From contig JAGQUX010000014.1 of the NCBI GenBank assembly GCA_020438215.1, positions 1 through 63,552 on the forward strand: a DNA stretch of 63,552 nt. The letters run 5' to 3'. The notes under the pieces were generated by a model. It had not been told where the DNA came from. It saw only the letters and a list, made by a program, of their open reading frames with translations, and did no database searches. This stretch comes from Armatimonadota bacterium. GTDB taxonomy: Bacteria; Armatimonadota; Fimbriimonadia; Fimbriimonadales; Fimbriimonadaceae. The translations under genes were made by a program, and so were the position numbers. Within the stretch, counting starts at the first letter, position 1; every line of letters starts with the position of its first letter. Shown here piece after piece: positions 6,736 to 57,638 of this stretch.

Positions 6736-7626
6736 TTGAAATTGAATCAAATGTTGGCCGTAGGTGTTCTTACGGGGAGCGTTGCGGCAATCAGTTCTGC
6801 ACAGAGCTTGCAAGTTGGCGCGTTTCAAGGTGTAAGCAATACGGAGTTCAACCAATACTCTGTCTATCAGCTTGATGGTGGCTTTGCTAATGGCGGAACG
6901 ATTTCGTCGAGTTGGTCAGGCACTTTCGATGGCTTTGACGGTGACTTCAACACTGACACGATGACCTACTCGGGTGGCTCACAAGCAACTGCTCAATATG
7001 GTTATCTGCGAAGCAGCGCATGGTCCACTTTGGATAACTCGTTCTACAATTCTGAGAATCCTTGGTACTACAATCCAACGACCGGTGATGTTAATCCAGA
7101 TGGCACGCCAGACTGGTTCTTTAGCGTTGGACAAAGCCGCTATGAGGATGTTTTCACATATACAAACATCCCCGCGCAGGTGCAAGTGGACTTTTGGTTC
7201 CATGTGAGCGGGACTTTCAATGGCGATGGATACCACTCAATCTATGTCACTGCAGATGGCGACTCTGATAATCTGTTCTTGACCGGATTTGATGGTAGCG
7301 TGATCAACCAAACCTGGGTCACTAAGAAGTTTGTCGTTGGTGCAGATCAAATGCTGAACCACTCGACAACCATTCTCAGTCAAGTCGATTACCAAACTCA
7401 GTTTAATCCTGAGCATGCAAACCTCAGCGGAAATGTTGACTTCGATTCCACCGTGTACATGAGCGCTATGCACGTCTACGACATGGACGGTAACTTGCTC
7501 ACGGACTGGACAATGACTTCCGCGAGCGGCACCACCTATCCGGTGCCTGAGCCAGCAACACTCATCGGTTTGGCCACTCTATCCGGCCTTGCGCTGCGCA
7601 GAAAAGCCAAAAACAAAAAATCCTAA
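6736..7626 (+). CDS. PEP-CTERM sorting domain protein
   Basis: An exported 296-residue protein with an N-terminal signal (to about 'ISSAQS') and the C-terminal sorting signal: 'VPEPATLIGLATLSGLALRR' then basic residues. PEP-CTERM proteins are processed by an exosortase and tend to occur in bacteria that make exopolysaccharide. The start is a TTG at 6736 preceded by a strong AAGGAGA at 6724-6730; no in-frame ATG fits. The body is Gly/Asn/Asp/Tyr-rich with no recognised domain, perhaps a beta-sandwich matrix protein. The 150 bases upstream hold its leader and no other gene. Confidence 0.9.
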   Translation: MKLNQMLAVGVLTGSVAAISSAQSLQVGAFQGVSNTEFNQYSVYQLDGGFANGGTISSSWSGTFDGFDGDFNTDTMTYSGGSQATAQYGYLRSSAWSTLDNSFYNSENPWYYNPTTGDVNPDGTPDWFFSVGQSRYEDVFTYTNIPAQVQVDFWFHVSGTFNGDGYHSIYVTADGDSDNLFLTGFDGSVINQTWVTKKFVVGADQMLNHSTTILSQVDYQTQFNPEHANLSGNVDFDSTVYMSAMHVYDMDGNLLTDWTMTSASGTTYPVPEPATLIGLATLSGLALRRKAKNKKS

Positions 7627-9331: not shown

Positions 9332-10114
9332 CTAATCCGAACGTATTTTTCTTCGCTGATAATTAAGGGCTTCCCTCATCCTTGAAGAGATCTTTTTCGC
9401 ATCATCAGACTTTGCCAGTTGCGTCGCCTTGGCGATACTTTCTTCACACGGCTTTAGCCATTTGCGGTCTTTTGTGACGGCGAGTAAAGCAAGGTTGATC
9501 TCTGATTTGAAGCGATAGTATTGAAAATCGGTAAGTTTGCTTCTGTGTTGATCTAATATCTCGAGTCCATAGATTCGATCTTCAACCTTTGCGTGAGCGT
9601 GATATGAATCGAAGATGTATGCCATTTTGAGGTTCGAGTCATTAGGATAAAGATCAAGTAATTTTCTACCCAAATGGCTGGAGTTGTGCACCCCACCAGT
9701 TATCCATCCGGCAGTATAAAGCGATCGTAGATATTCTCGATCATCCACAAACTGACCCAGCCCAATTGCGTTTGCACAGTTATTGCCGGCTTGTGTGCCT
9801 CGGAGAATGTCGTAAAACGCGACATATATTTCCGAGAGTAGGTAAGCGTTTTCTGGCTTCTCATACTCACGATATGGCATCGTACTGATCTTTAGTATCC
9901 GTGCGCGCCTATTTTCTAAGGTGTCCTTACGCAGAAAGCTGATCCTGTTTTGAACTGTCTCCCGGTAGTTTTGCCACTGAGCAGTCTTAGGGAGCTTGAC
10001 ACTTGTTTTTGAATACCACGGCGCAGGAACTTCGTAGCCTTGCTGAGCGAAGCTAGCAACCGAAATTACTATTGCTACCAGCGTCAAGAAAACCCGCGCC
10101 TCCCGGGAACTCAT
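9332..10114 (-). CDS. secreted protein of unknown function, downstream copy of a tandem pair
   Basis: A signal peptide ends 'SVASFAQQ' and is followed by 'YEVPAPWYSK'. The mature part is helical and rich in Leu, Arg and Tyr, with no recognised domain; the spacing of 'AYLLSEI', 'DREYLRSLY', 'LGRKLLDLYP', 'AYIFDSYHAHA' and 'EDRIYGLEIL' suggests a TPR-like helical repeat. The ATG at 10114 is preferred over a TTG at 10132 because it matches the paralogue's start. It is homologous along its length to the upstream gene (10053-10949), whose end it overlaps by 62 bases. Function not known. Confidence 0.7.
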   Translation of the reverse strand: MSSREARVFLTLVAIVISVASFAQQGYEVPAPWYSKTSVKLPKTAQWQNYRETVQNRISFLRKDTLENRRARILKISTMPYREYEKPENAYLLSEIYVAFYDILRGTQAGNNCANAIGLGQFVDDREYLRSLYTAGWITGGVHNSSHLGRKLLDLYPNDSNLKMAYIFDSYHAHAKVEDRIYGLEILDQHRSKLTDFQYYRFKSEINLALLAVTKDRKWLKPCEESIAKATQLAKSDDAKKISSRMREALNYQRRKIRSD

Positions 10115-10949
10115 GGAAGCAAGGTACCACAAGAATCTGGTAATTTGAGCCTCGGGTCAATTCAAGTGGTAGTTTATCAATCTCAAGCCGTAACCTGTTG
10201 AGCGACTCCTCCATTTGTTGCACAAGCTGTTTTGCTTCAGCACTTTTTGCATATCCTTTTGCTTGGGATGCTCTCTCGGTAGCCTTTTCGAGCCACTTCT
10301 TTTCTTTAGTCCTGGCTGTAAGCGCTAGGCATATTTTTGCACCAAAGTACGAATACTGAAACGACGTGAGTTGACTCTTACAATTTTCTAACACTGTTAG
10401 GCCATAGATTCGGTCTTCATTGACGGCTTGGCCACGATAGGAGTCTGTAATGTAGGCAAGCTGCAAGTTGAAGTCCTTAGGGTATTCCTCGATAAGCTTC
10501 CTTCCAAGCCTCTTTGTAAGGTTTCCACCAAGGTGGAGCCAAGTAGAACTGTAGAGTGATCTCAGATAGTCCTTCTCATTCACAAATTGGCCGGATTGAA
10601 TTGCCGACGCAAATCGATTGGAGATGGGTGTTCCCCGTATTTCATTCGAGAATTTCAACAGGATTTCCGAAAGTAAGTAAGCATCTTCTGGCTCTGTCAG
10701 TTCTGCATATCGCAGGTTGGTAATTTCACCAAATTTTTGCATCCTTGACCCTTTGCTATCGGCAGCTAAAAATGAAATGCGCCGTGCCACTGACTCCTTA
10801 GTTTTTTTCCAAGCTGAAGATTCACGCAACTCCGAGACGGACTTGGAATACCACGGCGCAGGAATATCGTAACTTTGCTGAGCGAAGCTAGCAACCGAAA
10901 GCGCGATTGCTATCAGTGTCAAACAAACCCGCACCTCCCAAGGCCTCAT
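10053..10949 (-). CDS. secreted protein of unknown function, upstream copy of a tandem pair
   Basis: 298 residues with the same signal peptide and mature start ('YDIPAPWYSK') as its neighbour and matching blocks 'AYLLSEILLKF', 'KDYLRSLY', 'LGRKLIEEYP', 'AYITDSYRG' and 'EDRIYGLTVL'. After the shared region the frame runs on about 40 residues, out of frame through the start of the downstream copy. That tail ('CFHEFPGGAGFLDAGSN...') is therefore probably not ancestral and reflects a lost stop or small shift at the duplication junction. Function not known; a TPR-like helical fold is possible. Confidence 0.7.
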   Translation of the reverse strand: MRPWEVRVCLTLIAIALSVASFAQQSYDIPAPWYSKSVSELRESSAWKKTKESVARRISFLAADSKGSRMQKFGEITNLRYAELTEPEDAYLLSEILLKFSNEIRGTPISNRFASAIQSGQFVNEKDYLRSLYSSTWLHLGGNLTKRLGRKLIEEYPKDFNLQLAYITDSYRGQAVNEDRIYGLTVLENCKSQLTSFQYSYFGAKICLALTARTKEKKWLEKATERASQAKGYAKSAEAKQLVQQMEESLNRLRLEIDKLPLELTRGSNYQILVVPCFHEFPGGAGFLDAGSNSNFGC

Positions 10950-12626: not shown

Positions 12627-13607
12627 TTAGTTTTTCTTGCGTCGGCGAAGAGCGAGTGCGCCCAGGCCAGCGAGAACTGCCATGGTTCCTGGTTCCGGAA
12701 CCGGAGTCAACTCGACTTCAACGTTGTCAACCAAACCGAAGAGCAGCGCTTCTGCGTTTGCATCACTGGAAGAACCAGCGTTGATATCGGATTGCATGAA
12801 GAAGATATTATCTCCTGCGGTCGTTGCTTTAGTCCAGGTGCCGATCAGAGTGCCATCAATCGACCAGGTGTAAACATCGCCAGTCTTGTTGATTTCCCAT
12901 CGTCGCCAAGCGAACGCTTGTGCGCCAACTTGAGGAGCACCGGTTTGACCACCGAACAGGTTGAGCTGAGCGGCCGGAACAGAACCTTGGAAACCAGCAT
13001 AGTACGGATCGCTTGCGTTCAAGCCTGCGTTGCCGTTTGCCCCAGCTGGGTCAGCTGCGTATGCACCGGTTGAACCTTGAATATGTGCACCAGAAGCCTC
13101 GTACATGCGGTAGTCCGTTGACGAGCCACCATCGCCAGTTGCTACGGTAGCAAAGCTATCGAATGTGCCACCGAACCAGTTCAGGTCGTTGACGCCGCCA
13201 ACACCACCACCGGAGAGTTGGGTGGAACCAGAACCACCAGCCGGGAATGGGCCAACGGAGTTCATCCACATATCCCAGCGCATGGTGTAGTCACCGGAAA
13301 CCGCGAAATCCAGCGGATTGACGGTCACAGCGGAGAATGTGCCAGAACCGAGGTTTGCAATCATCTTCAAACCGCGAGTGGTGCCGCTCGAATTCGGTGC
13401 AATCGGGATACCAACAGTGGAGTAGTCGAAGAAGAAATCTGCTTCGCCACCAGAGTGATCAAGGGCAGCATCTGCGCCACCGAGAGAAGAGTTGAACTGC
13501 CACTGTGAAGAGTGGTCTACGTCGAAGTCTTCTGAGAAGACGACTTGTGCTGAGGCGAAAACGCCCAGGGAAGCGGCCATTGCCGACAAGAGAATACGCT
13601 TATTCAT
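12627..13607 (-). CDS. PEP-CTERM sorting domain protein
   Basis: 326 residues. The ATG at 13607 gives a signal peptide 'MNKRILLSAMAASLGVFASA' and follows GGAAAGTA; the frame is open further upstream but without homology. The C-terminus is a textbook PEP-CTERM signal: 'TPVPEPGTMAVLAGLGALAL' then 'RRRKKN'. The body ('FSEDFDVDHSSQWQFN', 'YTMRWDMWMN', 'WRRWEINKTGDVYTWSIDG') looks like a concanavalin-type beta-sandwich, so a carbohydrate-binding surface protein is plausible. It is a single gene with a likely terminator at 12574-12606. Confidence 0.9.
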   Translation of the reverse strand: MNKRILLSAMAASLGVFASAQVVFSEDFDVDHSSQWQFNSSLGGADAALDHSGGEADFFFDYSTVGIPIAPNSSGTTRGLKMIANLGSGTFSAVTVNPLDFAVSGDYTMRWDMWMNSVGPFPAGGSGSTQLSGGGVGGVNDLNWFGGTFDSFATVATGDGGSSTDYRMYEASGAHIQGSTGAYAADPAGANGNAGLNASDPYYAGFQGSVPAAQLNLFGGQTGAPQVGAQAFAWRRWEINKTGDVYTWSIDGTLIGTWTKATTAGDNIFFMQSDINAGSSSDANAEALLFGLVDNVEVELTPVPEPGTMAVLAGLGALALRRRKKN

Positions 13608-13780
13608 TACTTTCCGACTCCTAAAAAAGGAAAACAAAATTGAAACGACACGCGCAGAACGCGGCGAATCGCTTATCAGTATGTCCCGAATCATTCCTGA
13701 ATGTTGAATTGTCATGAAAACCCGGTATTTTTGCGACGGGACCCGCATATTCTCAACATGGTTCGGGATAGAGTATCGAT

Positions 13781-31030: not shown

Positions 31031-32059
31031 ATGCTGATTCTCATGCGCTTGGGCGCGACCGAAGAGCAGATCCAAGAGGTTTGCGACGCGATCAAGGCGC
31101 GTGGGTTTGATCCCCTTTTGCTTCCCGGTGAAGACCGCCGGGCCGTAGGAGTTCCTGCCGCCCTTTCTAACGATCAAAAAGTGGACTTAGAAGGTGTGAT
31201 TTCGCGCCTTCCGGGCGTCAGTAAAATCACCCAAACCTCTAGCCCGTTCAAGCTGGCAAGTATTGAATACCATCCGAATCCAACCGTCATCCCGGTCAAG
31301 GATGTTGAGATCGGTACTGACGAGTTTGTCGTCTTTGGTGGGCCATGCTCCGTGGAATCTTACGAGCAGTTCTCGACCGCGGCCAAGATGGTGAAAGAGG
31401 CGGGATCAAAGGTTCTGCGTGGAGGCGCGTTCAAGCCTCGCACTAGCCCGTACTCATTCCAAGGTTTGCAGGAAGAAGGCCTCAGAATTATCCAGCAGGT
31501 CGGGAAGGAAACTGGTCTCGCCACGATTAGCGAGGTGATGGCGGCGGATATGGTGGAGACCGTTGCGGAGTACGTTGATATTTTGCAGATCGGCGCACGA
31601 TCAATGCAGAATTTCCCGCTTTTGATTGAAGCAGGAAAGTCGGGCAAACCTGTATTCCTCAAACGTGGCCCAGCGGCAACGATTGATGAGTTTCTCTTGG
31701 CCAGTGAGTACCTGTTGAATCAAGGCAACGAGAATGTGATCCTTTGCGAGCGAGGTGTGCTCCCAATTGACCGTACTTACGTTCGCAATACCCTTGATTT
31801 GAACTCTGTTCCTGTGTTGAAAGAGTTGACCCACCTCCCTGTGATCGTTGATCCGAGCCACGGCGTTGGGGTTGCGCGCTACGTGCCAGCCATGGCGAAG
31901 GCGGCAATGTTTGCCGGTGCCGATGGCGTGATGATTGAGATGCACCCTGATCCCCGCGAAGCCCTCAGTGATGGCTCACAAGCTCTCGATCCGGCAACGT
32001 TTAGCCAGTTGCTCGGCGAATTCAAGCAACTGGCTCCGATTGCTGGCAAACGGTTCTAA
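31031..32059 (+). CDS. aroF: 3-deoxy-7-phosphoheptulonate synthase (DAHP synthase, type I beta)
   Basis: 342 residues. Catalyses PEP plus erythrose-4-phosphate to DAHP, the first shikimate step. An N-terminal ferredoxin-like regulatory domain (residues about 1-70) resembles the Thermotoga-type feedback domain for Tyr/Phe. The barrel shows '[14 protein letters not shown]', '[19 protein letters not shown]', '[14 protein letters not shown]', '[14 protein letters not shown]' and '[16 protein letters not shown]'. ATG at 31031 was preferred to a TTG one codon upstream. It ends 32059 in a 4-base stop overlap with the opposing array. Confidence 0.94.
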
Positions 32060-33431
32060 TTTGTTTGCTCGGGTTTGCGCTTGATCTCTGCGGTGAGTGG
32101 TGGCTTTTCTTTAGGAATCCACTTTGTGCTCGTGTCTGCATACACGACAGCAGTGCCGTACTTGCCGCGGATGACGCCAAGTGCGGTTTGTGAATGGTTG
32201 TCAATGTCGGCTTGGTTTTCACCGTTCATCAAGTACTCAAACCCTTCGTAGTAGTCTGAGTTTTTCATGTAGGGGTGGACGGCATTTTCCCAATTATCAC
32301 TGAGAGGAAAACAATCGTCGTAGTCAGCACAGTAAATCGCCATTCCGACTCCCATCATTTTTGCCTGACCGAGGAGCTTGTCTTTTTCTCGATCCATTCC
32401 TGCTTTGCTGACTAAATCGTAGTCTACAGGCACAATATGGCTGAGATAGAAACCGTCATCCTTGGAAAACCAAACATGATCAGTTCCTGCCATACCGTGC
32501 TTTTTTGCTTCCCTTGTTACAATGGCACCTACTTTTGCAACACTCCGCTGAGTTTCGTCAAGATTGCCCTTCGTAATTTCTTTACCAAGAAGTGAGTTGT
32601 GAAAAAGGCGGAGTGATCTGAATCGACCACCTCCATAAGTAGAAAACTCTTCTTGAAATGGGCGGACTATGTCATTGATGACCACGTTGTTGGCAGAAAC
32701 GATAGCCCCGGTTTGCAGATTGATCTCCCACTGGGAGTCCAACCCAATGGAGTAAACAACGGGTCGCGTCGGGTGGGCAAGTAGCCTCCATTGATGACCG
32801 CCATTCGGGATGGGAACTTCTCTGACCTTGGCCAGACTGGCATTGAAAAAAATATAACTGAGTATTTAACCGGATCACTGTTGCCGTTGCTTATGAGATT
32901 TGCGAACTGGCCCATACTTGGGACAAAAATGAGATTTGAATTCTCAAACGGCTCAACTTTGCTTGGCTTGCCAAGTGCTGGCATCAAGAAGGCATTGATA
33001 AGAACTACGTCTTCGTCAGATTTGGGTTGGGATTTGTATTCGCGGATGTAGACGTATTCGGAATTGTCAATGAACTCGGTTTCAATATGATCTGCTTGCT
33101 GATCAGGATAGGCAAACACTTCATTAACGCGGCCGCTTGCAATCTCTACGACTGCCTCTACAGTGTTTAGTGGTTCGACATTACTTTCGGCAATTTTGAC
33201 TAAGTCTTTTTCGGTGCGTCGGTGATAGCGCACTAAAGCGAATTTGCGGGAATCACTGAGTTGGACGGATTCAATTTCGCCAGAAATGATCAGTTTAGGA
33301 GGCATCACCATCCACGCTTGAGTACCGCTGACGGTGATCATGTCACCAATATCGCGGTAACCGCCATCTTTCACCTGGGCGGTGGCGACAAAACTGAGCG
33401 CGGCAACCGCACCGAACATCAAAGCTCTCAT
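32056..33431 (-). pseudogene. frameshifted propeller-pilin family gene (third of three tandem paralogues)
   Basis: The gene has a signal peptide ('MRALMFGAVAALSFVATAQ') and a 254-codon frame down to 32667, then continues in another frame from about 32770 to 32056. Comparison with the upstream paralogues shows one protein: after 'NGGYLPT' the reading must shift to reach 'RPVVYSIGLDSQWEINLQTG', the block equivalent to 'LAVYVRNDNGKFIGIDLVSG' in the next gene. The C-terminus has the pilin-type end ('AKMMGVGMAIYCADYDDCFP', 'YGTAVVYADTSTKW') but in diverged form. The first ATG overlaps the previous gene's stop. It could be a genuine pseudogene or a sequencing or assembly slip near 32745-32775. Confidence 0.8.
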
Positions 33432-34804
33432 CGTAGCAGTCCAAAAATGTGTTTTTGCTCGGCAAGAAGGGGCGGAGTCTTACGCGGTTCCCACTTCACG
33501 TGTCCATCGACATAGGCGACCGCGCGCCCATCTTTGCAATCAATGTAGCCGAGCACTGTGTTAGCCGGATCATCAATATCGGCGAGGTTCTTATCGCCCA
33601 GCATGTATACAAAGCCATCCATGACTTCCATATTCTTCACGTATGGCGATATCTTTGTCGTCCAATCATCAATAGATGGGAATTGGTCATCGTAGTCGGC
33701 ACCGTAGATCATCATTCCGGTGGCGACTTGCTTGGCCTTGCTCAGGAGAGCTGTTCGCTCGGCGGCATTCTTATGTTCTTCGAGGAGTGCTTTGTCTACT
33801 TCAATGATTTCGCTGAGAAAAAGCCCGCGCTCGTGCAAGTGGTACACGAATCGGTCACCCGCAAGTAAACCGCCTGTCAGCGCCTCTTTTGTGACAACAG
33901 CGAATCCATCTCCCGGTGCAGATTGCGGCAACCCAAGTTTGGAACGCTCCTCTAATGTGGATAGAGGAGACAACGGCGAGTTCCAGTCTTGCGCTCCAAT
34001 GAGCATTGGCGATTTTTCATTATGAGAAATGTAAAATTTCGGCTCTACATAAGTAGGTGAAGTAGGGCGCTGAATTTCTGATAGTCGTCCCGAGACGAGA
34101 TCGATACCAATGAACTTGCCGTTATCATTCCGAACGTAGACGGCCAATTGGTTGGGAATTGGGGCAACAAAGGGAGCTGTTTTTTCGGGCAGATCGAAGG
34201 TTCTCACGGATGCGAAATCCGCGGTGTAAATATGCAGTTTCATATCTTCGTACCCTGATGGGCCGGCAACCCATGAGTTGACTACGAACGAACCTCCTAC
34301 CTTGATAACGTTCCCCATCTTTCGTGGAGCTGGCATCTCTGGCATCTTGATGATGTTTCCGTTTAGCCCGAGGATGTAGCCGCCAGCAGCATCTCCTTCG
34401 CCCAATCGTGCGTAAAGGCCAGATCCGTCAGGTAGCCAGTTTTGGACAGACGGGGAACTCAGATAGGGGAGTTCCGCCAATACCGTTTTCCGCCCGGATT
34501 TGACGTCATAAACAATGTGTTGAACAGTTGGGTTTTCCGGGATGTTTCCGGCAGTCATTGCCTTGAAGAGGGAGTCATCCGATGCAAAGAGAAAAGCATA
34601 AATATATCGTCCGTCGTCGCTTGGGATGATGCTTTGGAGGAATCCATCGATGACTAGTTTCGCCGGAAGCACCATGTAGGCTTTTCCCTCTGCCATAAAG
34701 GTCATTTCATCGCCGTCTCAGGCTCCGAATTGCACACCTTGTCCGAATGCGGATCCTGTGCAAGCGATGAATAAAAGAGTGATGTTACCGAGATATTTTT
34801 TCAT
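33428..34804 (-). pseudogene. propeller-pilin family gene with an in-frame TGA after the signal peptide (second paralogue)
   Basis: From an ATG at 34804 the frame encodes a signal peptide ('MKKYLGNITLLFIACTGSAF' then GQGVQFGA), reaches TGA at 34718-34720 (codon 29), and continues uninterrupted through 'DGDEMTFMAEGKAYMVLPAK' to the stop at 33428. Without readthrough only 34705-33428 (425 codons) would be made, with no export signal. The paralogues have a signal peptide joined directly to the same block, so the TGA splits one gene. Aligned, it falls at the Arg of 'GYRDIG' in the next copy, consistent with CGA to TGA. The C-terminal pilin-type domain is intact ('QVATGMMIYGADYDDQFPSI', 'VAYVDGHVKWEPRK'). 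Selenocysteine readthrough is possible but less likely. Confidence 0.8.
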
Positions 34805-34873
34805 TGTGATGTAGGATTCTTGTCGTCGGCTCCTTTCGTCAGAACAAACGGCAGGAGTAGTCATGTGAGTTGA

Positions 34874-36235
34874 TTAGCGGAGTGAAGAAAGGGGAGGTTC
34901 GTGTTTTTCCCACTTCACATGCCCATCGGCATAGGCGACAGCGCGCCCATCCTTGCCATCAATGTAGCCGAGCACAGTCTTTGCTGGATCCTTGATATCC
35001 TTGAGGTGCTTGTCGCCGAGCATATAGACAAATCCCTCCATTATGGGGCGATTCTTGAGATACGGAATAATTTTCTCTGTCCAGTTTTCGATCGTTGGAA
35101 ACTGTTCCTCGTGATCAGCGGCGTAGATCATTATGGCCGTCGCAACCATCTTCGCGATGTTTGTCAGAATGAGTTTCTCATCCGGCCCTGTCGGGGTCGT
35201 TGAAATGATCACTTTCGACTCCACAACTTCGCTTAAGTAGAGCCCTCGCTCGCGGATGTGCCAAACATACTGATCGCCGGGCACTATTCCGCTTTGGAAC
35301 GAATCTTTGCTCACTACAGCGAAATCGGTATCCGAAATAGGGGCATGATTACGTGGATCGCTATGCTCTTTTGCACCGCTGGATGGCGATGCTGATTGGA
35401 GTGTGTAGAGGTTTTGATCCCATCCGCCAATCAGTAGCAGCTCTTCAGGAGTAATCAGTGACTGGAATCTTGGTCGATCCTCATGAATGCGAACAAATGC
35501 CCCTAATTGCCCTTGGTTTCCAGAGTCGATATCGACAGAAATCCACTTCTGGTCTTTCGTCATCAACTGTACGGCATTCGCATTGGGAAGCGCAGTTACG
35601 TGCGGGCCAATGTTGTTGGGTAGCACATGCGACTTGGTGAGTTCTAAGCTTTGGTTATAAACCTGCAGACTCATGGCTGTCTCTGTGGCAGATAAGAAGT
35701 GTTGTTTGAGCGTTACAAAGTTCTCGCCAATTGGGATCATGTTGGTGATTCTCTCTTTGTCTCCGACGCCTGCAAGCGGTTTCATAGAACCGTCTTTGGA
35801 CATGACATAGATTCCTCGGCCTTCTTCAACTTCAATTGAGATCAGCACGCCTTGACTATTGGGAAGCCATTGCATAGGATCGCGAGCGGAGCGTGATGAG
35901 AAGGTACTCAGAATTTTGCTCTCAGAAGTTTCGATGTTGTAGAGCACGTATTGGCTCTGAAGCTCGGTCTGAGGCCGAGAGGTCAATCTGGACTTGAGCC
36001 AAGTATCGTCTTTGGAATACACCACGGCAAAAAGGAATTTCCCATCTGGGCTTGGTAGCACCTTGCGGACAAAGCCGTCAACCGCGAGTTTTGCAGGAAG
36101 CACCATGTAAGTTTTGCCTTCAGATTTGAAGATCTTTTCTTGGCTAGTTCGCTGGCCAAAAGTGCTTGTTTGCGCTAACGCCGCGCAAGAAAGAAAAAGG
36201 ATCGAGGAAGCTGCGAGTCCAGAAACAATTTTCAT
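34874..36235 (-). CDS. secreted propeller-like protein with pilin-type C-terminal domain (intact first paralogue)
   Basis: 453 residues. A Sec signal peptide ends 'CAALAQ'. Residues about 35-330 are rich in short beta strands ('YMVLPAKLAVDGFVRKVLPS', 'MQWLPNSQGVLISIEVEEGR', 'QKWISVDIDSGNQGQLG') in a TolB/YncE-like, propeller-type pattern. The last ~90 residues ('AKMVATAIMIYAADHEEQFP', 'TVLGYIDGKDGRAVAYADGH', 'VKW') match the globular part of DUF1559-type pilins but without the prepilin leader helix. So a pilin-type domain sits on a normally exported protein. It heads a three-gene minus-strand array; a 42-base gap separates it from the divergent gene at 36278. Function unknown. Confidence 0.75.
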   Translation of the reverse strand: MKIVSGLAASSILFLSCAALAQTSTFGQRTSQEKIFKSEGKTYMVLPAKLAVDGFVRKVLPSPDGKFLFAVVYSKDDTWLKSRLTSRPQTELQSQYVLYNIETSESKILSTFSSRSARDPMQWLPNSQGVLISIEVEEGRGIYVMSKDGSMKPLAGVGDKERITNMIPIGENFVTLKQHFLSATETAMSLQVYNQSLELTKSHVLPNNIGPHVTALPNANAVQLMTKDQKWISVDIDSGNQGQLGAFVRIHEDRPRFQSLITPEELLLIGGWDQNLYTLQSASPSSGAKEHSDPRNHAPISDTDFAVVSKDSFQSGIVPGDQYVWHIRERGLYLSEVVESKVIISTTPTGPDEKLILTNIAKMVATAIMIYAADHEEQFPTIENWTEKIIPYLKNRPIMEGFVYMLGDKHLKDIKDPAKTVLGYIDGKDGRAVAYADGHVKWEKHEPPLSSLR

Positions 36236-53489: not shown

Positions 53490-54239
53490 TCAATCATTCT
53501 GACGATTTACTTTCTTGTTTCGCATGAGAACGATGAAGGCAGGAACAAAAAAGAGCCCACCGCCGAACAGAATTGCCACTACATATTCGCCCATGACTCC
53601 GGGGCGCAAAACTGCCTCTTTGGGATTCGAGGGGTTGTAATACACCTTGATTGCGGGATTATTGTTGTGAACCTCGTTGACGCTTTTTGCTTCTTCGATG
53701 GTTGTGTAGCTGCGTTCGGGGATGGAGATACGGGAGCCTTCGTATGTTTTTCCATCGACGATATAAAAGTAGTAAATGCTCACGTCCCAGGCGCGAGAGC
53801 TTTTGCCTGAGGGTCTTTCAGAATAAGAAGGGCCAGCGATAATTGTTCCCATGACGCTGGGCCACCGGGAGGTTTTCGCTGCGTTGTACGTGACGATTCC
53901 CCCGCCAATCCAGAAAGCGAGACCGATGAGGAGGAAGATCGGGATCCAGAGCTTACGTTTTTGGGGCTTAGGCGACGGAGTTGATTCGACTAGCGCGCCT
54001 TGTTCCGGGATCAGGAAACCCCAGGCGTTGGCGGAGAACTCTCCCGCCGCAAATCGGATGGTTTTCCCATCGGCGGTGATGGAAACGATGTCAAAACTCC
54101 GGTCTTGCCCCCAGATGCGATCTTGGAATTCGACTTTACCGGGCTCGGTCGTCCAGGGATGATCCCAGATGTTGATGCCTTCGATTTCGAAGGGTTCGCT
54201 ATCGTAGCAGTCGCCGAGGTATTTCCAGCCGGGAGTCAT
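53490..54239 (-). CDS. DUF3592-like membrane protein
   Basis: 249 residues. The N-terminal ~90 residues are polar; membrane helices are 'WIPIFLLIGLAFWIGGGIVT' and 'VVAILFGGGLFFVPAFIVLM'. Between them lies a DUF3592-type beta domain: 'RWPSVMGTIIAGPSYSERPS', 'VSIYYFYIVDGKTYEGSRIS', 'IKVYYNPSNPKEAVLRPG'. DUF3592 has no known function. It is four bases downstream of a second such gene. Confidence 0.72.
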   Translation of the reverse strand: MTPGWKYLGDCYDSEPFEIEGINIWDHPWTTEPGKVEFQDRIWGQDRSFDIVSITADGKTIRFAAGEFSANAWGFLIPEQGALVESTPSPKPQKRKLWIPIFLLIGLAFWIGGGIVTYNAAKTSRWPSVMGTIIAGPSYSERPSGKSSRAWDVSIYYFYIVDGKTYEGSRISIPERSYTTIEEAKSVNEVHNNNPAIKVYYNPSNPKEAVLRPGVMGEYVVAILFGGGLFFVPAFIVLMRNKKVNRQND

Positions 54240-54243
54240 TTTG

Positions 54244-54813
54244 CTATGAATGTGGACGAACCTGAAAAGTGTTCATTGTCTTGATAATTTTGATAACGGG
54301 ATTAGATCCAAGAGTAATGGAAAGAAACCCAACTGCGAGATACGCGGAAAAGAACGGTTGAAGCCATGCGATTTCGACGCCGGATTTCTCAAGGTTATCT
54401 TTGTCTATCCGTACAGTTACGGCAGTGTCTTCTTTCAGGCGAGAAGCAACGACTTTGGCGAGCTGGCGATCAGGTTGCTTGCCAAAAACAAAGACATTGG
54501 TACCTCGATGTAGTCTGCCTTGATATTCAAATTCGTATTCGGCGACCACCGTTTCCATTTCAAACCCGAATAGGGGCTTGGCCTCAACCATTTTGGCTGG
54601 GGATGTGATGACCCCATCTGCGGTAGGGAGCTTTGCCGCGCGGAGTGCGTCGAAGATATCCTTTGCGGGATGAAGAAGACAGAAAACCGCGATCACCAAA
54701 CTGAGGAACTGGAACGGAATGGCTACGAGGAGTTTCTTCTCTAATTTCCTATATTGCTTCAAATCTTTAGGGGAGAGACTTTCGATGAACTCCTGATGTT
54801 TCCCCTTTGCCAT
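54244..54813 (-). CDS. DUF3592-like membrane protein, second copy
   Basis: 189 residues. Two hydrophobic helices ('LLVAIPFQFLSLVIAVFCLL', 'PFFSAYLAVGFLSITLGSNP') enclose a beta region ('TADGVITSPAKMVEAKPLFG', 'VAEYEFEYQGRLHRGTNVFV', 'AVTVRIDKDNLEKSGVEIAW') with the DUF3592 pattern of an 'Y-x-Y-x-x-x-G-x-x-Y/H' strand pair. Heads a three-gene minus-strand run to 52539. Confidence 0.68.
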   Translation of the reverse strand: MAKGKHQEFIESLSPKDLKQYRKLEKKLLVAIPFQFLSLVIAVFCLLHPAKDIFDALRAAKLPTADGVITSPAKMVEAKPLFGFEMETVVAEYEFEYQGRLHRGTNVFVFGKQPDRQLAKVVASRLKEDTAVTVRIDKDNLEKSGVEIAWLQPFFSAYLAVGFLSITLGSNPVIKIIKTMNTFQVRPHS

Positions 54814-55172: not shown

Positions 55173-55240
55173 GGGAACCCGGCAGGAAAATCTCACGTTC
55201 GGAAGAGCAGTGAGTGACTATTTGGTTCGGAAGTTCGGGG
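55173..55240 (+). repeat. duplicated leader and start region, copy 1
   Basis: Contains GGGAACC-CGGCAGGAAA, CGTTCGGAAGAG and the first codons through GTTCGGAAGTTCGGGG. It recurs at 55708-55786, showing that the duplication covered the ribosome-binding region as well as the gene. Confidence 0.75.
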
Positions 55241-55671
55241 CATTTATTGAGCCGCGGCGCACTCAGCAGTGTGCTTTGGTAGATAGGGTCTTTGCAGGCG
55301 TCACCATCACCGCCCTTGCCATCGCCTGGGTGATTTCCTTTAGTGCAAGTAGTGGTCTCATAGCAGCTCCGCTCGTGGTGGGGGGAGGATTGTTTGCGAT
55401 AGCGTATTTCAGTGGCAATCTGAACGTGATGTTTGGAAGTGTGTTGGCGAATGGATTCCTCGTTGCTGTCAGCGTAGAGCTTTTGCCAGACACTCAATTG
55501 GTGAGCGTGGCTATGAGCGCTCAGATGTATGCGACTCTGCTGCTATTCTTGCGAATCGTGTTTAGTCCGTATACTTTTGAGCGGAAGGGAGCCAAGAAAA
55601 CTAAGATCATTCGAGGCGTGATGCCACCAGGGGAGAGTAACTATCCTCGCGAATACGAAGAACTGGGCTAG
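55210..55671 (+). CDS. small four-helix membrane protein, MPPGESNYPRE-tail family, copy 1
   Basis: 153 residues, GTG start preceded by GGAAGAG. Begins 'MSDYLVRKFGAFIEPRR', then four hydrophobic helices ('FAGVTITALAIAWVISFSAS', 'LIAAPLVVGGGLFAIAYFSG', 'VMFGSVLANGFLVAVSVELL', 'AQMYATLLLFLRIVFSPYTF'), and a basic C-terminal tail ending 'RGVMPPGESNYPREYEELG'. By charge both ends face the cytoplasm, so the conserved tail is internal. No known domain. It is one of four consecutive relatives. Confidence 0.7.
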   Translation: MSDYLVRKFGAFIEPRRTQQCALVDRVFAGVTITALAIAWVISFSASSGLIAAPLVVGGGLFAIAYFSGNLNVMFGSVLANGFLVAVSVELLPDTQLVSVAMSAQMYATLLLFLRIVFSPYTFERKGAKKTKIIRGVMPPGESNYPREYEELG

Positions 55672-55707
55672 CTATAAGAATCTGCGCCAAGTACGCGAGA
55701 TGACAAA

Positions 55708-55786
55708 GGGAACCGACCAGGAAATCTGTACGTTCGGAAGAGAAAGGCTCGTGATATGAGTGACTTGTTTGTTCGGAAGTTCGGGG
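55708..55786 (+). repeat. duplicated leader and start region, copy 2
   Basis: Counterpart of 55173-55240: GGGAACCGACCAGGAAA, CGTTCGGAAGAG, and GTTCGGAAGTTCGGGG within the coding start. The extra bases between the GGAAGAG and the ATG at 55756 differ from copy 1. Confidence 0.75.
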
Positions 55787-56217
55787 AGTTTTTTGAACCC
55801 AGAAGGTCTCAGAAGTGCGCCGAGCTAGATCACTTTCTGGCGGTCATCTCGGGTGTCATGAGCGTCATCGCGTTTCTGATGGGTGCCACATCTGCAAACT
55901 ACGTGATGGGAGTCGCGTTTTTGATTGGGTATGGATTTGTGCTCCTCGGCTATTACAGTGGCAACCTGAATGTGATGTTCGGGTGCTTCCTGATTCATGG
56001 GGTTCTCTCCGTCTTAGGCGTGAGCCTCGTTGGATTTGATGTAATGGAGGCAATCTCCTTTCTTATCCAGGCACTAGTTGGCCTGATTTTGCTTTTCCGA
56101 ATAATGTTTAGCCCCTACACTTTTGATCGGAAAAGTAAGAAGAAAGTCAAGGTCGTTCGTGGTGTGATGCCACCAGGCGAGAGCAACTATCCGCGTGAGT
56201 ACGACGAATTGGGTTAG
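55756..56217 (+). CDS. small four-helix membrane protein, MPPGESNYPRE-tail family, copy 2
   Basis: 153 residues, ATG. N-terminus 'MSDLFVRKFGEFFEPRRSQK' and tail 'RGVMPPGESNYPREYDELG' closely match copy 1, and helices are equally spaced ('GVMSVIAFLMGATSANYVMG', 'VAFLIGYGFVLLGYYSGNLN', 'FLIHGVLSVLGVSLVGFDVM', 'FLIQALVGLILLFRIMFSPY'). The middle has diverged while the ends hold. Unknown function. Confidence 0.7.
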   Translation: MSDLFVRKFGEFFEPRRSQKCAELDHFLAVISGVMSVIAFLMGATSANYVMGVAFLIGYGFVLLGYYSGNLNVMFGCFLIHGVLSVLGVSLVGFDVMEAISFLIQALVGLILLFRIMFSPYTFDRKSKKKVKVVRGVMPPGESNYPREYDELG

Positions 56218-56235
56218 TCCGGCGTAAAAGGGTGT

Positions 56236-56652
56236 ATGCGTTTGTGGCGGAAGCGTCCGGCTTGGCTACTGGCAATCGATCTGGGCTTGTCAATGACAGC
56301 CCTGGTTGTGCTGGTGGTCGTTATTGCGCACATATCCCAGGAAAACTCGTTTGTCATTCCTATGATATGCGGGCTGTTCTCGGTGATTGCCTTTGCCAGT
56401 GGGCATTGGATTCTCACTGGATTCGGCATATTGAGTACATGGATATTCGCCGTCATCACATATGCAATTTTTGATGGTGGCTCTCCTACGGTTTTGAACC
56501 TCGAGTTTCCGGTTGAGTTGATCAACTTCATTCTGGTTTTTGCCGCGATGATCCGGATGCTTGCTGATTATCTAAAAAAGCCGAAATCAGTCAAGCCGAG
56601 TATGCCGCCCGGTGAATCCAACTACCCGCGGGAGCTTGATGAACTGGATTGA
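56236..56652 (+). CDS. small membrane protein, MPPGESNYPRE-tail family, copy 3
   Basis: 138 residues. Different N-terminus ('MRLWRKRPAWLLAIDLGLSM'), hydrophobic helices 'ALVVLVVVIAHISQENSFVI', 'MICGLFSVIAFASGHWILTG' and 'GILSTWIFAVITYAIFDGG', then the tail 'KPSMPPGESNYPRELDELD'. The ATG at 56236 follows AAAAGGG. It overlaps copy 4 by 14 bases. Confidence 0.68.
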   Translation: MRLWRKRPAWLLAIDLGLSMTALVVLVVVIAHISQENSFVIPMICGLFSVIAFASGHWILTGFGILSTWIFAVITYAIFDGGSPTVLNLEFPVELINFILVFAAMIRMLADYLKKPKSVKPSMPPGESNYPRELDELD

Positions 56653-57025
56653 TCGCACTCGTCCGAGATGGCTAACAAAAGGAGACATTGCTCTCGCCGT
56701 GGCAATGGGCTTGCTTGCTGTGGCGATTGGGGTTGATCTGTATCGTGACCCATTTTCTGCAGTGATCTTGGTTGTTATCGGGATGCTCTGCCCGCTGGCA
56801 CTTCTCTCGGGAAACAACTGGCTCATCGGGTTTTCCGTGATATCGAGTTTGCTTTTTGGCGTAATGGCTTACGCTTATTGCGACGGTGCTTCGCGGAGTG
56901 CGTTTGGGATCGTTCATGGGACGCATTGGTTGACCTTCTTTGCGCCGGGAATTCCTGCCTTGAGAGTGATGCTGTTTGCCGGGCTGGATATCAAAGAGAA
57001 GCTGGATGGCGATGCAGAACTCTGA
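56639..57025 (+). CDS. small membrane protein, family copy 4, tail lost by frameshift
   Basis: 128 residues from the ATG at 56639. 'MNWIDRTRPRWLTKGDIALA' aligns with copy 3's 'RPAWLLAIDLGLS', and helices 'VAMGLLAVAIGVDLYRDPFS', 'AVILVVIGMLCPLALLSGNN' and 'LIGFSVISSLLFGVMAYAYC' follow. The frame stops at 57025 ('KLDGDAEL') before the conserved tail, which is still readable in another frame at 57058-57093, so a shift occurred between about 56960 and 57025 or in sequencing. Likely a decaying or recently broken copy. Confidence 0.6.
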   Translation: MNWIDRTRPRWLTKGDIALAVAMGLLAVAIGVDLYRDPFSAVILVVIGMLCPLALLSGNNWLIGFSVISSLLFGVMAYAYCDGASRSAFGIVHGTHWLTFFAPGIPALRVMLFAGLDIKEKLDGDAEL

Positions 57026-57057
57026 GCTATAACTTTCTGTTCGCGGGCAGGTTCCGC

Positions 57058-57093
57058 ATGCCTCCAGGCGAATCCAACTACCCCCGCGAGTAA
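57058..57093 (+). other. orphan MPPGESNYPRE tail of copy 4, out of frame
   Basis: Eleven codons plus a TAA encode the exact family tail, one frame away from copy 4. Codon choices differ from the other three copies, so the match is at protein level. Confidence 0.75.
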
Positions 57094-57104
57094 CATATCC
57101 ATCC

Positions 57105-57638
57105 ATGCCGCGGCTATTCCACTTCAGCGAAGAACCCAATATCGAGCGATTTGTGCCGCGCTCGCCGCTCGCTCACCCAGATGCGGAGGCACTCGTCTGG
57201 GCGATCGACGAAGCCCATTCCCATTTCTATCTCTTCCCGCGGGAATGTCCCCGCATTGGGATTTGGGATTTAGAAACTGGGCCTCAGGGCATGCATCTCT
57301 ATGCTCAAGAGGATTGGAAAGAACAAATCCAAGCCACTACTTTGTATCGCTATGAATTTGATCCCATGGGCTTTACTGACTGCCAGGATCACGGTGTCTG
57401 GACATGCGATTCGATCATCGAAGCCATTGACAGGGTAGCAATCACGGATCTGGAAGGTGCCCTCAAAGAGGCAGGAGCACGCCTGAGCTATCTCAGCGAC
57501 CTGAAAGCGAAAGCCGAAGAACTCTACAATTTTGAGCGCAAAGAGTGGAAGACCGCCCTCCATGTCTCCATGACGCGGATGCGCAACCTCGCCGATTGGC
57601 CCCATGCCAAGGGCAAGCCGACTACTCCCAAAAGCTAG
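57105..57638 (+). CDS. DUF6886-like protein
   Basis: 177 residues. 'PRLFHFSEEPNIERFVPRSP' and 'ALVWAIDEAHSHFYLFPREC' with 'PRIGIW' match a small uncharacterised family (assigned from memory as DUF6886). Helical C-terminal half. No signal or helix, so cytoplasmic. It follows the orphan tail by 11 bases and overlaps the opposing fucosidase at the stops (CTAG). Confidence 0.65.
   Translation: MPRLFHFSEEPNIERFVPRSPLAHPDAEALVWAIDEAHSHFYLFPRECPRIGIWDLETGPQGMHLYAQEDWKEQIQATTLYRYEFDPMGFTDCQDHGVWTCDSIIEAIDRVAITDLEGALKEAGARLSYLSDLKAKAEELYNFERKEWKTALHVSMTRMRNLADWPHAKGKPTTPKS

Follow-up and report, generated by a model that had tools for sequence, protein, structure and literature searches.

In the open reading frame list, four genes in a row on the plus strand, at 55210-57093 of the window, encode small membrane proteins; by the window we mean the whole 63,552-nt stretch of Armatimonadota DNA that we analyzed. 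An 11-residue peptide, MPPGESNYPRE, is encoded four times along this array, and the question that the locus raises is what such a tail does on these proteins. The first-pass annotation had proposed that it could dock a partner. The features of the array are as follows.

55173..55207, plus strand: 35-nt leader repeat upstream of copy 1, a direct repeat with 77% identity to 55708-55742
55210..55671, plus strand: copy 1, a 4-helix membrane protein of 153 aa with a GTG start, four hydrophobic segments and the C-terminal end ...RGVMPPGESNYPREYEELG
55621..55653, plus strand: tail of copy 1, MPPGESNYPRE
55708..55742, plus strand: 35-nt leader repeat upstream of copy 2, a direct repeat
55756..56217, plus strand: copy 2, a 4-helix membrane protein of 153 aa, from the ORF, alignment and AlphaFold2
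56167..56199, plus strand: tail of copy 2, MPPGESNYPRE
56236..56652, plus strand: copy 3, a 4-helix membrane protein of 138 aa with the C-terminal end ...MPPGESNYPRELDELD
56602..56634, plus strand: tail of copy 3, MPPGESNYPRE
56639..57025, plus strand: membrane ORF of copy 4, 128 aa, whose stop precedes the tail
57026..57057, plus strand: gap from the copy 4 stop codon to the fourth tail, with a frameshift at or before this point
57058..57090, plus strand: tail associated with copy 4, MPPGESNYPRE, out of frame with the membrane ORF and followed by TAA

All four copies can be aligned with one another. Copies 1 and 2 are 46% identical and also have in common 74-nt and 123-nt end repeats as well as the 35-nt leader; copies 3 and 4 make up a second pair, in which the last 14 nt of copy 3 also form the start of copy 4. 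At 56622-56641, the CGG GAG codons that close the copy 3 tail could also serve copy 4 as a ribosome-binding site. A hydropathy scan fits four helices in each of copies 1-4, and the earlier description of short polytopic proteins is borne out by the four predicted helices in each of copies 1-3. AlphaFold2 placed the helices of copy 2 at residues 19-45, 49-68, 71-91, and 96-118, with a disordered C-terminus, in a model whose overall confidence was low (mean pLDDT 62.6; four sequences). Since every copy has a Lys/Arg-rich N-terminus and a Lys/Arg-rich segment beyond its last helix, both ends are predicted from this positive charge to be cytoplasmic.

Promoter and terminator scans of the array region gave no clear excess over shuffles. 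Downstream, the neighbor at 57105-57638 encodes a DUF6886 protein (E 9e-33) and is not evidently linked to the array. Two adjoining DUF3592-like membrane proteins on the minus strand at 53490-54813, the second under the cut-off, form another tandem pair that adjoins the array and is transcribed away from it. Elsewhere in the window we noted by eye, both on the minus strand, a pair of secreted tandem paralogues of 266 and 298 aa (9332-10949) and, at 32056-36235, three related secreted proteins in succession; this genome looks to have many local tandem duplications. Secreted proteins at 6736-7626 and 12627-13748 have, by eye, the PEP-CTERM-like end signals PVPEPATLIGLATLSGLALRRK and PVPEPGTMAVLAGLGALALRRRK.

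The array had been described as four adjacent genes that all end in the tail. Four tandem homologous membrane ORFs are indeed present, but the membrane ORF of copy 4 stops at a TGA without the tail, and the fourth tail lies 33 nt beyond this TGA in the frame one base back, where it ends in YPRE and a stop. The fourth tailed gene of the first-pass annotation joined these two frames; the TTG ORF at 56878-57093, in which the fourth tail is terminal, is not the membrane protein. The intact tail-bearing genes therefore number three, not four. Within copy 4, a frame score preferred the membrane frame to about 56990 and then, weakly, the tail frame. Between the tails of copies 3 and 4 there are five differences; because all five are silent, the break probably either arose recently, comes from an assembly error, or is bypassed. 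A bypass would mean that copy 4 makes its tailed protein through programmed ribosomal frameshifting, which would give four working tails, one of them regulated. The perfect conservation of an out-of-frame tail and the switch in frame score would both fit such a bypass, but we saw no obvious slippery heptamer by eye at 56980-57025, and one deleted base, or an error in an assembly of 119 contigs, is simpler. We regard programmed frameshifting as very unlikely; a recent frameshift, or else an error in the assembly, probably severed the copy 4 tail.

That the tail is identical at the protein level in four copies proved correct: it is encoded four times with silent differences only. Compared in pairs, the four 33-nt copies differ by 5-11 bases, all synonymous, and for Ser two copies use AGY and the other two TCC. 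The chance that five random changes in the tail would all be silent is P about 2e-4. This codon comparison indicates that the tail peptide has been under selection. It also bears on whether the tails are identical merely because the array recently underwent duplication or gene conversion. The genes are in tandem and long repeats are common to copies 1 and 2, as such an origin would have it; differences at up to 11 of 33 bases, every one silent, already refute it, and in addition the bodies have diverged to 22-46% identity in pairwise alignment and the core of the tail recurs outside the array. We consider this origin practically untenable.

In copies 1-3 the tail sits beyond a basic juxtamembrane stretch, as had been described. 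In copy 2, pLDDT falls under 50 from residue 122, so that the tail region is predicted to be disordered in this low-confidence model. The tail shared by copies 1-3 is C-terminal in position but not quite terminal, as [YL][ED]EL[GD] comes after it. A stand-alone 11-residue peptide translated from the tail ATG was considered and dropped, as no consistent ribosome-binding site was seen by eye.

No Pfam family passed the curated cut-off for copies 1-4, in agreement with the earlier statement that no known domain was recognized. For copy 2, the best Pfam match had E 0.07, under the cut-off, and a fold search with the low-confidence model gave a best match of E 0.6. We found no convincing relative of the array bodies elsewhere in their own genome, in a protein search of 60 relatives (where the matches were without such a tail), or in a profile search of 291 genomes of the phylum (290 besides their own); matches outside the own genome were weak, with E above 0.003. 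Exact 8-mer peptide seeds run against 84,980 species gave none that was confirmed. Exact PPGESNYP was absent from 100 other relatives, and PPGx[ST]NYPRE gave three DNA matches in genome contigs, none of which encodes the peptide when read. Looser GxxNYPRE matches were rejected, as most belong to another protein that reads NYPSE, a by-product of the degenerate Arg codon; by eye, this protein is a D-Ala-D-Ala dipeptidase. A common partner sought through the gene neighborhood was likewise absent, with no common partner or reader gene adjoining the array. As far as these searches reach, the array is an orphan local expansion by tandem duplication, and the full tail is found only there. The proposed search for homologues in Armatimonadota thus returned the bodies and the exact tail at this locus only, but its core motif proved to be family-wide.

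We searched for this core as [ST]NYPR in 18 genomes, namely the array's own genome (G000), one congener, and 16 further genomes from 16 genera. Real genes were separated from chance frames and the detached copy 4 tail was left out, which yielded 17 in-gene sites; the L117 site (G033), whose ORF has a longer competing frame, was also left out. Each of the 17 sites falls in a protein for which at least two helices are predicted. They are spread over about seven unrelated families and always lie in an end or a linker outside the helices. The sites are as follows.

Array copies 1-3
DUF975-like proteins in G000, G003, G014, G032, G101, G028, and G017
GYF_2-like + TM2 protein in G000, with SAPSNYPRQ
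Double GYF_2 + DUF4190 protein in G003, with GPTNYPRE
Small protein in G003, with the start MDNMESNYPRG
GYF_2-fused homologue of the preceding protein in G002, with VESNYPRP
Small protein in G000, with the end PDSNYPRD
Likely homologue of the preceding protein in G002, with the end LSNYPRENVQNSPTNET
4-helix protein in G101, with the start MQTPPPGSEPSNYPRQ

As background, at least two helices are predicted for the products of 11 of 62 genes in the window, a count that includes the four array genes. For about seven independent families, (11/62)^7 is about 5e-6, a rough figure and not a formal test, as the enrichment is based on sampled pattern matches and a hydropathy threshold and not on whole-proteome counts. 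The consensus of the instances that we collected, partly by eye, is PPx[YFPE][STA][NPEQ]YPR, which PPGESNYPR fits. Pro is enriched five and six residues ahead of the Tyr, which is invariant; Gly is not conserved in this wider PPx consensus, and the array tails have PPG.

The DUF975-like motif genes adjoin gyrA wherever neighbors were read, and homologues of this gyrA-side protein occur across Fimbriimonadaceae. In 26 of 30 such homologues, YPR lies in the flank that precedes the first helix or follows the last one; the five permuted tripeptides total two (0-1 of 30 each), and three of the remaining four homologues have the near-variants YPH, YPS, and YAR. The motif is N-terminal in most homologues and C-terminal in others, including those of G000, G003, and G008. 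Docking motifs typically behave in this way, moving between the ends of a protein whose domain is retained. Both in these homologues and among the collected instances, the motif is kept while its flanks diverge. Outside Fimbriimonadaceae, the 11 DUF975-like homologues that could be read were all without YPR, and where an [ST]NYPR site had a dominant open frame, the protein was in most cases one that lacks multiple helices. Sister family f5 provides the exceptions, two GYF_2 proteins, L250 (G044) and L255 (G046), which have SPYPR in a linker ahead of the helices (QSPYPRS and PSPYPRS), the only YPR linkers seen there. These linkers imply that the YPR form predates Fimbriimonadaceae in a GYF_2-linker context. 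In genus g22, the DUF975-like proteins L090, L091, and L098 have TPYPR or SPYPR after a GYF_2-like N-terminal domain, and their congener L095 has only a short SNYPR-bearing end. We read the motif, about PPxxSNYPR, as specific to the Fimbriimonadaceae lineage. A family-wide motif on unrelated membrane proteins is strongly supported as a conserved feature by these sequence patterns.

Several properties of short linear motifs are seen here: the peptide is conserved in unrelated proteins (17 sites, about seven families), lies in predicted disorder (pLDDT of copy 2; ends or linkers elsewhere), and is conserved relative to its flanks independently of position (YPR in 26/30; tails with silent changes only). 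Because the core recurs in unrelated membrane proteins, the tail behaves like a docking peptide; the earlier proposal of a partner-docking tail stands to this extent, but docking would not be a property of this gene family. We think it probable that the tail is an instance of a cytoplasmic short linear motif, P-P-x-x-[STA]-[NPEQ]-Y-P-R, and most likely a docking peptide, where we infer the binding, the side of the membrane, the reader, and the clustering. Many unrelated multi-pass membrane proteins of Fimbriimonadaceae would display the motif in disordered cytoplasmic ends, a soluble or membrane-anchored adaptor would bind the peptide, and this adaptor would gather the motif-bearing proteins into shared complexes or membrane zones. 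In the genome studied here, tandem duplication would have given rise to four orphan 4-helix proteins, with the motif displayed on each.

Two other explanations start from the same sites. The peptide could be a functionless relic, in which a gene for GYF_2, linker, and membrane part was repeatedly shuffled and the YPR linker outlived the loss of GYF_2. GYF_2 proteins with DUF4190, TM2, DUF975-like, and other membrane parts do have a YPR linker, and the part fused to GYF_2 in G002 is a separate gene in G003. A leftover linker accounts poorly for a motif at the opposite, C-terminal end in several DUF975-like proteins and in the array, for its being kept alone while the flanks diverge, and for tail substitutions that are all silent, so that we judge a relic unlikely. 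Alternatively, the peptide could act without an adaptor as a signal for topology, membrane insertion, turnover, or modification, for example as a kinase-modified Tyr or a protease tag. Such a signal would suit the invariant Tyr and the position of the peptide, always next to charged residues and close to helices in an end or a linker; its use from either end, its absence from most membrane proteins, and the frequent Pro-rich stretch ahead of it, which fits a peptide-binding groove better, make it decidedly unlikely.

If the motif is a docking peptide, its reader would likeliest be GYF_2 (PF14237), carried on SPFH/Band-7 scaffolds and on small membrane proteins, several of which bear the motif themselves. 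GYF domains bind peptides in eukaryotes. We found GYF_2 over the cut-off in 18 of 18 Fimbriimonadaceae genomes tested, the array's own included, and in 8 of 26 genomes outside the family, none of the eight in family f2. Three of the 17 motif genes also encode a GYF_2 or GYF_2-like domain, and a GYF_2-like N-terminal fragment of a DUF975-like homologue was under the cut-off in a query whose first residues were approximate. The own genome encodes an SPFH/Band-7 + GYF_2 protein (C54:5199) on the same 17-kb contig as the SNYPRD-ending protein (C54:14307). In families f3 and f8, the proteins read have GYF_2 without the motif, and canonical GYF_2-TM2 proteins are without YPR. By association, GYF_2 is the likeliest reader of the motif, an assignment that we put forward tentatively. 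More speculative still is a lineage-wide docking system in which GYF_2 on SPFH scaffolds and small membrane proteins would read PPxxSNYPR and gather unrelated membrane proteins into zones, with the array as a species-specific expansion of ligands, in parallel to the recognition of tails by eukaryotic GYF domains. Literature searches on SNYPR, DUF4339, and GYF with SPFH returned no published account of the YPR motif, and we found no published description of bacterial GYF_2 function.

An NPY-type Tyr-Pro peptide recurs at the ends of RDD, DUF4190, and similar proteins in other bacteria. Like the motif described here, it places Tyr-Pro at the ends of small membrane proteins, but the order of residues differs (NPY versus NYPR). 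Searches of the literature under NPYQAP and similar spellings found no account of the NPY-type terminal peptide or of the motif. In humans, the CD2 cytoplasmic tail PPPPGHR is bound by the GYF domain of CD2BP2 (PMC7295915). This pair resembles our case in its short Pro-rich peptide on a cytoplasmic tail, given that the array tail has PPG and the genomes have GYF_2; it differs in that it is human, with another peptide, whereas the motif here is mostly PPx with an invariant YPR, not PPG, its binding is one that we infer, and GYF_2 is a Pfam family separate from GYF. Fusions of GYF domains to TM-rich regions have been noted in planctomycetes (PMC7159879). Several of our motif carriers are bacterial GYF_2 membrane proteins of this sort, with TM2, DUF4190, or other TM-rich parts, whereas the array proteins are without GYF_2.

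The role of short linear motifs in prokaryotic signaling is less well understood, according to a survey (PMC3896991). Tagging of many unrelated membrane proteins by a docking motif is familiar in eukaryotes and little documented in bacteria. The array is of interest because it points to a motif that unrelated membrane proteins carry throughout the family. If confirmed, this motif would provide a compact, testable ligand for a bacterial GYF_2 domain and a handle on small membrane proteins of unknown function, including TM2, DUF4190, DUF975-like, and orphan 4-helix proteins.
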